Shown here piece by piece: positions 7,653-14,133 of a stretch of 64,000 nucleotides of DNA (position 1 is the first letter of the stretch; the number at the start of each line of letters is the position of its first letter). The translations under genes and the position numbers were made by a program. This DNA is from Microcoleus vaginatus HSN003 (GTDB taxonomy: Bacteria > Cyanobacteriota > Cyanobacteriia > Cyanobacteriales > Microcoleaceae): positions 4,402,001 to 4,466,000 of the forward strand of contig NZ_CP031705.1 in assembly GCF_022701255.1 (NCBI RefSeq), given 5' to 3'. The notes below the pieces were generated by a model, which saw nothing but the letters and a program-made list of their open reading frames with translations, was not told the DNA's origin and did not search any database.

Positions 7653-7850
7653 GTTTGCTCGTAACTGAATTACTTCCTTCTCACCATAAGATTACCTATC
7701 TTCTTTTTTATTTCTTCCTTTCTTATTTTTTTGCTACAAGAGCGCTATCGCGCCCCTGCGCTAACAGGTCGAAAGCGGTTCGTCAACTCACTATTTGGAT
7801 AAAAAAAACATAATTCAGAGGGGTATTAAATTCGATAGTACCGTATCTAA

Positions 7851-7880
7851 GAAAAAAAAGAAGCTCGAAAATGCGAGCTT
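7851..7880 (-). terminator. Rho-independent terminator of the M48 protease gene
   Basis: On the minus strand a 7-bp stem (AAGCTCG/CGAGCTT) with a 6-base loop is followed directly by CTTTTTTTT. It lies about 40 bp after the stop codon of the M48 protease gene. Confidence 0.85.
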
Positions 7881-7917
7881 AATTATATTTAACTTAAAAG
7901 GTTTCACCTGTCAACTG

Positions 7918-9642
7918 TTAAGCTGGAAATGAAACAAATAGCACCGCAATCCCAAGAACGATCGCCCCTATACCCATCACAACAGACCAGAAGCGGTGAT
8001 AACTCTTAACCGTGGTACCGCTATCGCTTTCAAGCTGAATCAAATCCATCCAAGGTGCAACACCCCGACGGAACCAACCCAAAGCGCTAACATCCATTCC
8101 AATCAAACTTTCAACCCGTTTCATGCCAAACATAAAATTACCAATTGGCCCAAAACGAGAAGCATAGCGCAGATAAATCATTCCCGTTGAGTCTTGCAGT
8201 TTCAAATCAGAACCGAAGGTATAACCCGCATCACCGCGACCAATTAATTCGCCTTGTAGTTGCGCCGGTTGACCCCGCAAGGGACTTGCGTAAGGGTCAG
8301 ACATTAAGGTTAAAACATCCAAGTGTTCTGCTTCTTCGTAATTGGGGAACATCACCAAAGTCTTGACCAAAATTCCTGCACCCAAACCGATTAAAGGACA
8401 AGCAACCATCATCATCGGGTTTACAGCATACAGCGAAATGCCGATCGCAAAACCCACCGCTAAGCCCAGAGTTTCTGCACTGTACAGTAGCAAATCGAAC
8501 ACAAAATTGCCGTACAATCTCCGCTTGCTCAAATCGTTGCCTTCGCCGATAATTCGGCCCATGTCAAACTCAATATCCAAGCCTAATTGTTCGGCATAAG
8601 TGCTCAAAGCGCGAACTCGTTTACCAGTCAGCGGATGAGTCGAGTTCAACTCCATCCACCAACCCCAGGGATTAAACATATCCCACAAAAACACTCGCCC
8701 AATTTTTTCCGGTTCCGAAGTAATCCTGTAAGCAGTGCCGGTAGATGTGGCAGCTTTGGCATCGTAAATGCCTAAAGCGCGAGTTCCTTCTAATAAGTGG
8801 CTGGGTTCGGTGGCTCTTTGTCCTTCTTCCAAAATACCGTAAGCAATTTTTACCAAAGCGCGAGACAAAGCATTGGGATTTCCGGTTGTTTCGGCTGCAA
8901 AATGGTCGGCAAAATATTCTCGCGTCCGCGACAAATACAGTAATAAATAAGTCCCTGCGATGTAAAAAAAATAAGCCACAGCAGCTACAGTACCGGCAGC
9001 ATCTTTAGCTTTGTCGCCACCACTTCGACCCATTCTTTGAGTTGTAGTGTAAATTAAATAAGTAATCTGCACCAAAGTCGAAGCTAAAGTCATTACTGCA
9101 AAGTCCCAGTGGACGATGTGACCGAGTTCGTGGGCGTAAACAGTGGCAATTTCCTCGTCGTCTAAATAGGTAAAAAGACCTTGACTGACGACTAAGCGAG
9201 CGCTGTTTGGAAATGAACCGTAAGTAAAAGCAGTAGGGTTTTGGTCGTCGATAATTCCTAAACGCGGAGAAGAGAGTTTTTTCTGCTTGCAAACCTTCTG
9301 AATAACTTTTGCTGTTTCGGGACTTAGGCTTTCAATTTCTGCTAGGGAAACCCAGCGCGTATGGTAGAGCCACTTTTGGCTTAAGTCCATCAAGTAAGGC
9401 GATAGGAAAAAAGCAGCGATGTTAAAAATCAGAGTTATGGGAAGTGCGATCGCCAATCCGGCGACGGGATCGGGACTGTTGAGAATCAAAACTGAGGCTA
9501 ATGATAGCGCTAACACCATACCAAACAGCAGGCTGATGGTGACGCCGGAAGCTAAAACGAGATTTCCGCCAGTTTTCTGTATCAGTTTAACGCCGGCTTT
9601 GGTGGCTCGCCCTGCCTTGCGTAAAGGGGCATGAGATGACAT
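7918..9642 (-). CDS. M48 family membrane metalloprotease (HtpX-like)
   Basis: A 574-residue membrane protein with an M48 peptidase domain. The zinc site HELGH is at residues 171-175, inside ATVYAHELGHIVHWD, and the third ligand region is SRTREYFADHFAAE about 70 residues on. Two hydrophobic helices precede the domain (about 30-55 and 62-82) and others follow it. The C-terminal third contains an OB-like part (LQGELIGRGDAGYTFGSDLKLQDSTG) seen in the long cyanobacterial M48 proteins but absent from E. coli HtpX, which is about half this length. Likely role: quality control of membrane proteins under stress. The start was set at 9642 because GGAG lies 7 bases upstream. Divergent from proA across about 230 bp. 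Confidence 0.9.
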   Translation of the reverse strand: MSSHAPLRKAGRATKAGVKLIQKTGGNLVLASGVTISLLFGMVLALSLASVLILNSPDPVAGLAIALPITLIFNIAAFFLSPYLMDLSQKWLYHTRWVSLAEIESLSPETAKVIQKVCKQKKLSSPRLGIIDDQNPTAFTYGSFPNSARLVVSQGLFTYLDDEEIATVYAHELGHIVHWDFAVMTLASTLVQITYLIYTTTQRMGRSGGDKAKDAAGTVAAVAYFFYIAGTYLLLYLSRTREYFADHFAAETTGNPNALSRALVKIAYGILEEGQRATEPSHLLEGTRALGIYDAKAATSTGTAYRITSEPEKIGRVFLWDMFNPWGWWMELNSTHPLTGKRVRALSTYAEQLGLDIEFDMGRIIGEGNDLSKRRLYGNFVFDLLLYSAETLGLAVGFAIGISLYAVNPMMMVACPLIGLGAGILVKTLVMFPNYEEAEHLDVLTLMSDPYASPLRGQPAQLQGELIGRGDAGYTFGSDLKLQDSTGMIYLRYASRFGPIGNFMFGMKRVESLIGMDVSALGWFRRGVAPWMDLIQLESDSGTTVKSYHRFWSVVMGIGAIVLGIAVLFVSFPA

Positions 9643-11282: not shown

Positions 11283-12368
11283 ATGACAGAAAATCCAAAT
11301 CAACCCAGAGAATACGATGCTGTCCTTGGTGGTGAATCTCAAGTGCCATTGTCGGCAGCCGTTTTAGGCGGGATTCCCGGCGTTAAAAGTCGGTTAGCTT
11401 CTCCCATTGTTGAGGTTAAAATTGCTGCACTGTCTGAAGCGCTGAAATATGGAGAGCCAGGTTTAGAATTAATAATTGGGGCACTGCAAGATGAATCAAT
11501 CGCGGTGAGATTTGCAGCCTATTCGCTGCTCAAGGATAGAGATGAATTAAATTTAAAAGGGCAGTTCCAAAAATATTTGCCTAATTATGAGTTTGATGTA
11601 ATAACAGTAAATGCTCAAGGAAAAGAAAACAGTCGCCGCCGTCATTATGCTCACTTCTTCCCCGAAGACTTAGGGAATGGAAGTGTACAGGAAATGGTTT
11701 ATATTCCCGGCGGCACATTTATGATGGGTTGCCCAGCAAGAGATAAATATAGAAGAGATAAGGAAAGTCCGCAGCATCAAGTAAGAGTACCCGCTTTTTT
11801 TGCAGGCAAATATTCCATCACCCGAGGACAGTGGCAAGCACTGATGGGAAACAACCCATCGTGGTTAAAATTTGAAAAACGTCCTGTACAAGTATCGTGG
11901 GATGAGGCCGTCGAATTCTGCGATCGACTCTCGCAACAAACGGGGAAAAAATATCGCCTCCTGAGTGAAGCAGAATGGGAATATGCCTGTCGTGCGGGTA
12001 CAACAACCCTATTTCATTTTGGGGAAACCATTACCCGGCAATTAGTCAACTATGAGGACGACTACCCCGACAGACCACTCCACTCGAAACAACCAACCGA
12101 TGTCGGGAGTTTTCCCCCCAATGCCTTTGGACTGTACGATATGCACGGCAATGTTTGGCAATGGTGCAGCGATAGGTGTCACGAAAACTATAACGGCGCA
12201 CCAACTGACGGAAGTTCCTGGGAAACCACAAATAATTACCGAGTGATGCGTGGCGGCAGTTGGGCTAACTTCGCGGGCCTTTGCCGCAGTGACTATCGCT
12301 GCTTGGTCTCGGAGGGCGGTAGGAGGGTGTACGGGGGTTTTCGCGTAGCGGTTTCTTCCTCGTCCTAG
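11283..12368 (+). CDS. Formylglycine-generating-enzyme-like (SUMF1) protein, probable DGR target
   Basis: A 361-residue protein. Residues about 30-95 are a HEAT-like helical segment (PIVEVKIAALSEALKYG, DESIAVRFAAYSLLKDRD). Residues about 135-358 are the FGE-sulfatase domain with a C-type lectin fold: MVYIPGGTFMMGCP, YSITRGQWQALMG, PVQVSWDEAVEFCDRLS, YRLLSEAEWEYACRAGT, ALYDMHGNVWQW-type motif and RGGSW. The last 38 residues (from RGGSW to the end) keep the fixed frame of the family (RGGSW, CRS.YR, GFRVA) but the positions normally filled by Asn have become A, N, F, G, L, Y, C, V, encoded mostly by NNC/NNT codons. That is the pattern left by adenine-specific mutagenesis in diversity-generating retroelements. 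In such systems this domain is the diversified ligand-binding part, so enzyme activity is unlikely. No reverse transcriptase or template repeat lies in the window. Confidence 0.85.
   Translation: MTENPNQPREYDAVLGGESQVPLSAAVLGGIPGVKSRLASPIVEVKIAALSEALKYGEPGLELIIGALQDESIAVRFAAYSLLKDRDELNLKGQFQKYLPNYEFDVITVNAQGKENSRRRHYAHFFPEDLGNGSVQEMVYIPGGTFMMGCPARDKYRRDKESPQHQVRVPAFFAGKYSITRGQWQALMGNNPSWLKFEKRPVQVSWDEAVEFCDRLSQQTGKKYRLLSEAEWEYACRAGTTTLFHFGETITRQLVNYEDDYPDRPLHSKQPTDVGSFPPNAFGLYDMHGNVWQWCSDRCHENYNGAPTDGSSWETTNNYRVMRGGSWANFAGLCRSDYRCLVSEGGRRVYGGFRVAVSSSS
12249..12360 (+). other. Putative DGR variable repeat (VR)
   Basis: About 112 bp at the 3' end of the FGE-like gene. Start and end are conserved (CGTGGCGGCAGTTGG and GGTTTTCGCGTAGCGG) while the middle is strikingly poor in A. 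Downstream a TCCTCG...CGAGGA inverted repeat (about 12355-12388) lies where DGR targets often carry a hairpin, but its 15-base loop is longer than usual. Confidence 0.6.
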
Positions 12369-12765
12369 TTTTCCCGGCGAGGACTCTTCTTTACCCTTTT
12401 ACCCTCTGCACTTTTTCCTTTTCCATGACGGCCGAAGGGCGATCGAAATCGCATTTTACCTAAATTTTAAAAGAGAAAGCAGTTAGAAGCTTTCAAAGAG
12501 CATAAGTTAGGAGAAAAAGTAGGTGAATAAGCGCGATCGCAGTTGGGATGATTTTAAGAGTGCGCTGTTATATTATTGTTTGTTTCCCACATAGATGGCT
12601 GGTAAAACCCACCCAATAGCCTGTAGATAGTGAATCTTAAGCAAAGTGTCCCTCCTTTTTCATCCATCCCAAAAAAAGCGATCGCCCTGACATTCAAACA
12701 AACTTAGCTACAATAAGCTATACTGTGCTCGGCGACTCCCCAACTCGAACAATTTGCCGTGGTTT
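12369..12765. other. Intergenic region, no gene
   Basis: No coding region or RNA gene recognised in about 385 bp. Two HIP1-type octamers (near 12534 and 12678). It presumably carries the promoter of the kinase that follows. Confidence 0.4.
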
Positions 12766-14133
12766 ATGTCTAACTCCTCCCTCCTCGCCCCCGGTTCGAC
12801 TCTCGAAAAACGCTACCGCATTCTCCGCGAATTAGGCCGTGGTGGCTTCGGGCGCACTTACCTCGCCGAAGACATCAACCGCTACAACGAATCTTGCGTA
12901 CTCAAAGAGTTTTCTCCGGTAGTTCATAGCCCGAAAGCTGCCGAATTGTTCGATCGCGAAGCGAGTATGCTTTACCACCTCCAACACCCGCAAATTCCAA
13001 GATTTCGAGAACTCCTGCGAACGGATTTGGGCGGGAATCCATCTTTATTTTTAGTGCAAGATTATATCAAGGGTCAAACCTATGAAGAAATATTGATATC
13101 GCGCCAGCAGCAAGGTAAAAATTTTACCGAAGCCGAAGTTACTCAACTGCTATTTCAGCTTTTACCGGTTTTAGAATACATCCACTCAAAAAATTTAATT
13201 CACCGCGATATTTCCCCGGATAATATTATTCAGCATGACGCTGACAAACTACCCTTTTTAATTGATTTCGGTTCAGTCAAACAAATCGCAGCCAATGCCG
13301 TACTTCAGTTTAACGGACAATCGGATACGGCGATCGGGAAACAGGGTTATTCGCCGGCCGAACAAATGCGGCTGGGTAAAGTTTCTGCTGCTAGCGATTT
13401 GTACGCTTTAGCCGTCACGGCTTTGGTACTGCTAAGCGGCAAAAAGCCTCAAAAATTGTACGATATCAATAATAAAACTTGGGATTGGCGATCGCACGTC
13501 AGTGTCAGCCCAAATTTAGCCAGCGTATTGGATCGGATGTTAGCAGAACAACCGGGCGATCGCTACCAATCTGCAAAAGCAGTCCGCGAAGCACTCAAAG
13601 ATCCAAAACTCTCTCACATTGGCAATATAATTTCCCAAATGGTGACAATGAACTTTGTCGGCCGCCCTTTCAAAAACACCACTCAAACTGCTACCAATAA
13701 TCATACTCCTGTTCACCAAAATCCTCAAATTGTTAATAACAACAGCACATTCAACTTAATTCCTTGGAAAACCCTAGGCAGTTTAAGTGTGATTTTGGTG
13801 CCAGGAATTTTAGCTTTTAGTGTAGTCAACTCTGGTTTCACGTTGCCCAAGTTGCCGGAATTACCTAAATTTTCTTCGCGCCAGCCACCTCCCGATACAT
13901 CCTTAGAGCAAGCCGAAATAATTCGTCAAGAAAAGATTGGTCAACGACGCAAAAATCTCAACATTAATCAAGATATTTTTTATCAAAAAGTGGATGAATT
14001 ATATTACAATAAATATCCAGAATTCCAAGGTCGTACCTTGACAGAAAAGCCAGAAGATGCTGAAATTAGGCGGAAATGGTATGAAGTTGCTGAGGATTTA
14101 TTGGACAAGTTGGAGAAAGGAGGAGAGTTGTGA
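12766..14133 (+). CDS. Serine/threonine protein kinase, membrane-anchored
   Basis: A 455-residue eukaryotic-type kinase. N-terminal kinase domain with glycine loop GRGGFG (24-29), ATP lysine in VLKEF (K47), catalytic HRD at 146-148 and DFG at 167-169. The catalytic loop reads HRDISPDN, with Ile-Ser in place of the usual Leu-Lys, a variant common in cyanobacterial kinases. One transmembrane segment at about 325-345 leaves a 100-residue C-terminal part (Pro-rich stalk, then helix QAEIIRQEKIGQRRKNL and a conserved ELYYNKYPEFQGR motif). Substrates unknown. It follows the FGE-like gene on the same strand, about 385 bp away. The ATG at 12766 was chosen over a GTG 12 bases upstream because the domain begins normally there. 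Confidence 0.92.
   Translation: MSNSSLLAPGSTLEKRYRILRELGRGGFGRTYLAEDINRYNESCVLKEFSPVVHSPKAAELFDREASMLYHLQHPQIPRFRELLRTDLGGNPSLFLVQDYIKGQTYEEILISRQQQGKNFTEAEVTQLLFQLLPVLEYIHSKNLIHRDISPDNIIQHDADKLPFLIDFGSVKQIAANAVLQFNGQSDTAIGKQGYSPAEQMRLGKVSAASDLYALAVTALVLLSGKKPQKLYDINNKTWDWRSHVSVSPNLASVLDRMLAEQPGDRYQSAKAVREALKDPKLSHIGNIISQMVTMNFVGRPFKNTTQTATNNHTPVHQNPQIVNNNSTFNLIPWKTLGSLSVILVPGILAFSVVNSGFTLPKLPELPKFSSRQPPPDTSLEQAEIIRQEKIGQRRKNLNINQDIFYQKVDELYYNKYPEFQGRTLTEKPEDAEIRRKWYEVAEDLLDKLEKGGEL

Follow-up and report, generated by a model that had tools for sequence, protein, structure and literature searches.

The gene at the center of this study ends in a segment that looks like the target of a diversity-generating retroelement (DGR), and the locus raises two questions: whether a DGR made this 3′ end and whether one still rewrites it. 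The gene lies in the analyzed window, a 64,000-nucleotide stretch of the Microcoleus vaginatus HSN003 genome (G000), and its features are collected in Table 1. The first-pass annotation of the window had described an FGE-like gene with a hypervariable 3′ end as a probable DGR target and had concluded that the retroelement must act from elsewhere. The first part of this interpretation stands, in that the 3′ end appears to have been made by a DGR, but the second part, a retroelement acting now from elsewhere, does not. The segment is most probably an orphaned DGR variable region (VR), an old DGR product that is inherited as a fixed variant.

Table 1. Features of the target gene and its variable 3′ end in window coordinates
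Feature	Position	Strand	Description and basis
Target gene	11283-12368	+	361 aa; open reading frame
N-terminal part of target gene product	residues 41-98		Predicted helices; AlphaFold2 model
FGE-sulfatase / C-type-lectin-like domain	11685-12350	+	Residues 135-356; Pfam and PDB matches
Putative DGR variable region, whole	12239-12389	+	From template-like start (CCGAGTG) to homing-motif end
Mutated core, 24 codons between RGGSW and GFRVA	12264-12335	+	19/24 template-A positions altered, 15/48 others
Constant tail GFRVAVSSSS-stop	12336-12368	+	Without 9 nt present in 21/23 class tails; tail alignment
Intact IMH-like homing motif GGCGAGGACTCTTC	12376-12389	+	3′ of stop codon

The target protein matches the PF03781 (FGE-sulfatase) profile with 164 bits over residues 135–356 in a Pfam profile search, and its PDB matches are PvdO, Treponema variable protein 1 (2y3c) and human FGE. 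An AlphaFold2 model (pLDDT 71.3), which was used solely for the fold, matches the same three proteins. The FGE-like gene with a lectin fold and a C-terminal VR that had been proposed at first pass is thereby borne out, and by sequence and predicted fold the domain groups with the FGE-type C-type-lectin (CLec) DGR targets. The VR occupies the C-terminus of this C-type-lectin-fold protein, as is characteristic of DGR targets. The C-terminus reads RGGSW-ANFAGL-CRS-DYR-CLVSEGGRRVYG-GFRVA, including the CRS, YR and GFRVA residues as annotated, and the full run is RGGSW-ANFAGLCRSDYRCLVSEGGRRVYG-GFRVAVSSSS-stop. Both FGE active-site cysteines were sought in the target protein, and the pair was not found. 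In a phmmer alignment with 2aft, a C336S mutant, Asn329 of the target protein faces the FGE Cys336 position, and the second cysteine (Cys334) alone is kept. Because asparagine occupies the Cys336 position, ligand binding is favored over FGE catalysis, and the protein probably works as a sensor module for a ligand, not as an FGE enzyme. The next gene downstream (12754–14133, + strand) is serine/threonine kinase-like by eye. Kinase-linked CLec targets are known for cyanobacterial DGRs (PMC7517822), and signaling or conflict sensing has been proposed as the role of such targets (PMC7517822 section 6; PMC10907252).

The ends of the VR were set by register with the template repeat (TR) of G015, another genome of the genus, and by a common VR boundary at template position 162–163. 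Among 47 matches to the G015 template plus core, 26 stop at this boundary, four enter the core and 17 end earlier. The window VR is absent from the 47 because it is too diverged for E ≤ 0.01; it gives no BLAST match to the G015 template at this threshold, and only its last 35 bases are matched (E = 0.047) in a local search. Its tail and its paralogue are what place it in its class. The VR segment extends beyond the stop codon and terminates in the homing motif GAGGACTCTTC (12379–12389), where the TRs read GAGCACTCTTC. The longer form GGCGAGGACTCTTC is unique in the window at ≤1 mismatch (0.01 expected), and we infer that it acts as an IMH. The IMH at the 3′ end of the VR differs from the IMH* of the TR (GAGGAC versus GAGCAC). 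At the boundary, GAGGAC is found in 23 distinct VR ends and GAGCAC in three templates, one of which (L085) belongs to another genus. This count is restricted to ends with an exact GAG[G/C]ACTCTT, includes loci outside Microcoleus, leaves out loci L117–L196 and misses the G041 template, whose motif lies beyond the 150-nt limit and which, read separately, also ends in GAGCAC. The sole further GAGCAC end is that of G253, a VR running into a template core. The motif is worn or lost in several VRs, including those of G005, G012 and G002b and the G019 copy of the window gene.

The mutational pattern of the VR is that expected of adenine mutagenesis. An Asn-rich template after RGGSW had been postulated in the first-pass annotation, and the template of a genus relative has this form (RGGSWNNNAVNCRAANRNNNSAGNSNRNRGFRVA). 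The mostly C or T third bases that had been noted are found in 16 of the 24 codons between W and GFRVA and in 9 of the 11 codons that are Asn in the relative's template. Altered positions are concentrated at the template adenines (19/24 versus 15/48 at other positions; Fisher p = 1.3e-4), in a test that uses the template of a relative rather than that of the window VR and in which those 15 non-A positions differ too. When 15 VRs are compared with the G015 template, 230 of 360 A positions and 230 of 720 other core positions are altered; 11 of the 15 VRs individually reach p < 0.05 for adenine bias, and four, including G000b, do not. This test leaves out the G019 copy and three VRs that differ in length (L015, L023 and L027). 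Variable columns, defined by a majority base below 70%, coincide with template adenines more sharply: in a set of 16 VRs that share the window's tail class, the G015 template has A at 23 of the 29 variable columns versus 1 of the 43 conserved ones (p = 2.6e-12). The G001 and G041 templates give 22/29 and 21/29 for the variable columns versus 1/43 and 2/43 for the conserved ones. The window/G000b pair was rejected as an adenine test on its own, as only 13 of its 29 differing sites are A in the G015 template, in which 24 of 72 sites are A overall.

Pairwise differences among VRs amount to 0.47, 0.42 and 0.30 at codon positions 1, 2 and 3, respectively, the reverse of the pattern in the upstream coding sequence (0.15, 0.175 and 0.44; 16 anchored codons), in a comparison of 16 VR and 16 upstream sequences that are not the same 16, the upstream control being 16 of 24 rows. 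The adenine columns, the codon-position pattern, the common 3′ boundary, the GAGGAC/GAGCAC difference and the FGE/lectin fold together support, at the level of sequence, the assignment of the 3′ end of the gene at 11283–12368 as the product of a DGR.

The window itself contains neither a reverse transcriptase (RT) nor a template, as had been annotated, and the search was therefore extended to the whole of G000, a single contig of 6,756,317 bases that includes the window. Neither a DGR RT nor a matching template was found there. The PF00078 profile detects four RTs in G000 (L001–L004), which are group-II-like and form two pairs with equal scores. They are 25–27% identical to a DGR RT, and no DGR-type RT was found among them. 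The L001 RT matches the group II profile TIGR04416 (333 bits) together with HNH profiles. The RTs that were read comprise 604 and 619 residues (L003 is the 619-residue frame), and L002 and L004 were judged by scores and frame lengths equal to those of the L001 and L003 RTs. Avd was sought in G000 with NF033474, which gave no match. A TR search of G000 with the VR as the probe returned only the VR itself, two paralogues and five hits of 15–18 bp; the G015 TR plus core returned one VR paralogue at E ≤ 0.01, and the G041 TR plus core at E ≤ 10 returned VR paralogues together with matches no longer than 28 bp. The three VR genes of the window's class in G000 lie far apart. The FGE paralogues L013 and L014 were rejected as class members, as they are without the window's tail. 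The assembled genome holds the signature of a leftover DGR target, an adenine pattern against the templates of relatives with no RT or TR found, rather than the RT, TR and Avd of a complete DGR or of an active remote one. The missing RT and template tell against present activity, not against the origin, since the templates of relatives establish the origin.

DGR machinery is present elsewhere in the genus. The G015 DGR RT is matched in 27 of 29 genus genomes, but at 71–100% identity in only five (G015, G041, G039, G042 and G009), the RT of G009 being partial at a contig end; these five place the element in the genus. NF033474 (Avd) exceeds the cut-off in two of the 24 genus genomes searched (G009 and G015), and matches to the template plus core extend past the VR boundary in four genomes (G015, G001, G041 and G042). 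The elements of G015 are arranged in the order VR, TR, Avd and RT, and in this assembly the target gene beside the complete DGR is interrupted by an in-frame stop immediately ahead of the VR (L100, G015:C280, about 8292–8451). In G001, a VR gene and a template are adjacent (L240, G001:C155, about 7850–8580), with small open reading frames after the template. No RT or Avd match was found within 15 kb around this VR and TR, and across the G001 genome Avd gave no match and none of the RTs is more than 31% identical to the DGR RT. In G042, the VR runs straight into the template core, with Avd and RT remaining downstream (L239, G042:C93, about 8592–8797), and G253 likewise joins a VR directly to a template core (L308). 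Both fusions have the look of a recombination between VR and TR.

VR- or TR-like hits occur in 23 of the 29 genus genomes, with G019 added by a tail search. Among the 24 genus genomes without a DGR RT, most of them draft assemblies that could conceal one (G000 and G019 each form a single contig and G012 consists of six), 20 have VR- or TR-like hits and G003, G007, G011 and G021 have none. Four short RT frames of 261–375 residues, L068 (G020), L069 (G007), L070 (G037) and L072 (G009), have neither DGR nor typical group II length. They keep QGxVISP and were rejected as DGR RTs; L068, the only one of the four that was scanned, matches TIGR04416 with 310.9 bits. G038, a 3.8-Mb genome of the same order, carries an unusual load of RTs, with 59 scored RT matches of 145 candidates.

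The VR shows no sign of continued rewriting in comparisons between species, each of which is represented by one genome. Between G000 and G019, 0 of 72 sites of the VR core differ, 120 of 120 sites around the VR are identical, and 2 of 600 sites differ upstream. The term hypervariable is accordingly apt between paralogues and between species but not between nearest relatives. The window VR has also drifted at columns where the templates have a base other than adenine, which, together with the unchanged VR of the sister genome and the lack of DGR RT, Avd and TR matches in the one-contig genome, tells against a retroelement now acting from elsewhere. It departs at 12 of 74 class-conserved columns, the highest value of 15 VRs and tied with G005 (range 0–12); these 15 VRs also served to define the columns, and one of the window's 12 is A in both templates. 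VRs beside their own templates show non-A departures of 2/130 (G015) and 5/130 (G001), one in each being the motif base and two in G001 lying past the VR end. The 9-nt tail loss is confined to the window copy and the G019 copy.

A third VR copy in G000 (G000:C1:84217–84930; L007, L015) reads GWNCNTVYC and has a cysteine at the FGE Cys336 position plus the second cysteine, in a register set by reading only. Its haplotype is common to four species, G000, G019, G013 and G043, with 0–2 differences in 75–81 sites, and the genes differ upstream at 8–16 of 600 sites. The homing motif of this copy is lost in G000, G019 and G043 and kept in G013 beside nearly the same VR. Similar relations hold for G005/G014/G040 (VR, 0–2 of 72; upstream, 22–38 of 600), G043/G014 (1/72; 10/600) and G008/G040 (5/72; 54/600), and in none of these pairs does the VR evolve clearly faster than its gene. 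Eight changes in the window gene give it a pN/pS ratio of 0.17. The values for other gene pairs are 0.45–0.57 and, in one case, 1.13, so constraint after freezing is not general.

The template that would correspond to the window VR is missing from the sampled genomes. Tails were sorted into three classes by reading, and 15 of 29 genus genomes were seen to carry the window's class (AVASVSSSS-stop and its near variants). Its template, which would have the tail SSSS-stop and the end GCGAGCACTCTTC, was found in 0 of 29. On reading, the 34 tail hits in the genus proved to be VR genes or worn tails (L307 in G012), with no template among them. Across 291 genomes of the order, the tail was matched in 11, ten in the genus and G253, which has a different tail. 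A template with the window's tail was not found in viral contigs by exact pattern, and searches of phages, and of plasmids with the VR, were empty. A template of this class may still exist in unsampled strains or replicons. A live DGR that acts in trans from a replicon outside the assembly, such as a plasmid or phage, or that comes and goes in the population would account for the intact homing motif and would fit both the DGR RTs of five genus genomes and the template-core-like DNA in six plasmid records from cyanobacteria, one of which spans 91% of the query. Such a source is nevertheless unlikely, given a VR that is identical in G019, is altered at class-conserved columns and retains its 9-nt tail loss, a template tail absent from the genus genomes and viral contigs, and an empty plasmid search.

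The window gene (L066) is more alike in G000 and G019 than its surroundings: the whole gene differs at 8 of 1085 sites, and the flanking BLAST segments are 94–97% identical. This unusual likeness suggests, from the sequences, recent exchange or strong constraint, and because recent gene exchange is possible, the identical VR can be explained without a long frozen time. The same figures, and the VR haplotypes common to several species, would be consistent with arrival of the gene from a relative with its VR already diversified, in a lineage that never had the matching DGR. That history is rather improbable; the three class VR genes at distant G000 sites and the VRs in most genus genomes fit descent equally. 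An ordinary FGE-domain loop under diversifying selection or drift, without any retroelement, is scarcely credible even though 4 of 15 single VRs miss p < 0.05 for adenine bias and third codon positions vary too, as loop selection predicts neither the reversed codon-position pattern nor the common 3′ boundary nor the GAGGAC/GAGCAC difference, and the variable columns coincide with the adenines of independent templates.

For the favored explanation, an orphaned VR, the following course is proposed. A DGR of an ancestor, or of the donor from which the gene came, would have transcribed an Asn-rich template, the adenines of which were misread by the RT with Avd. The mutated cDNA would then have taken the place of the 3′ end of the FGE/C-type-lectin gene as far as the homing motif just after the stop codon. 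The machinery for this VR class would subsequently have been lost from the lineage, and the variant would now be passed on like an ordinary gene; both of these last steps are deduced from the sequence pattern, from the DGRs and templates of the genus and from the finding of none in G000. More tentatively, the Microcoleus DGR could be a hit-and-run mutator, the template class of which made many receptor variants and then vanished from the sampled species, with its products persisting as fixed specificities common to species. Some products, such as the window VR, keep an intact homing motif and might become open to rewriting should a DGR come back, perhaps by way of a plasmid.

The window VR illustrates a possible fate of DGR-made variants after mutator loss, in which they are kept unchanged across species. 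The proposal that mutators are removed once an optimal variant has been selected (PMC7517822) becomes testable, as a diversify-select-discard sequence, by comparative genomics in one genus, where intermediate stages are at hand: VR and TR without RT, RT with fused VR/TR, and VRs alone. A VR-like gene is, as a caution, no proof of DGR action in the genome that carries it. A literature search, with supplements outside its scope, found no account of Microcoleus VRs; the one paper that contains both terms names Microcoleus for clonal diversity and in a reference.

Among known systems, the target domain shares its Pfam family and fold with formylglycine-generating enzyme (human SUMF1 and bacterial FGE) but differs from it at the Cys336 position, retaining only the Cys334 counterpart. 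FGE/CLec targets are also described for Thiohalocapsa PB-PSB1 and clade 5 DGRs (PMC10907252), where they are proposed antigen sensors of multicellular bacteria diversified in trans; those targets are diversified in natural populations, whereas the window VR bears no sign of this. In its C-terminal VR, dispersed CLec gene and homing site near the 3′ end, the locus resembles the remote cyanobacterial DGR targets (PMC7517822; Trichodesmium, PMC8867640), which have RT and TR elsewhere in their own genome, a pair looked for and not found in G000. Another cyanobacterial CLec target distant from an RT is all3226 of Nostoc sp. PCC 7120, in which TR–VR homology remains away from any RT (PMC7517822 section 6), but that strain still has two DGRs and none was found in G000.

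A close parallel is Treponema denticola, isolates of which, according to PMC4891356, keep leftover DGR target genes without RT and TR. There, as here, the VRs differ from the templates of relatives mostly at adenines, the genome has no RT or TR, and the variable protein is FGE-like; the Treponema variable protein 2y3c itself matches the window gene product. The Treponema case concerns isolates of one species with known templates, whereas the window class is genus-wide, with its template in none of the 29 genomes, and, unlike the Treponema targets, has VR haplotypes common to species and a measured non-A drift. Leftover DGR targets as such are already published for Treponema and Nostoc, and the missing template class and the cross-species haplotypes are the parts of the Microcoleus system worth following.
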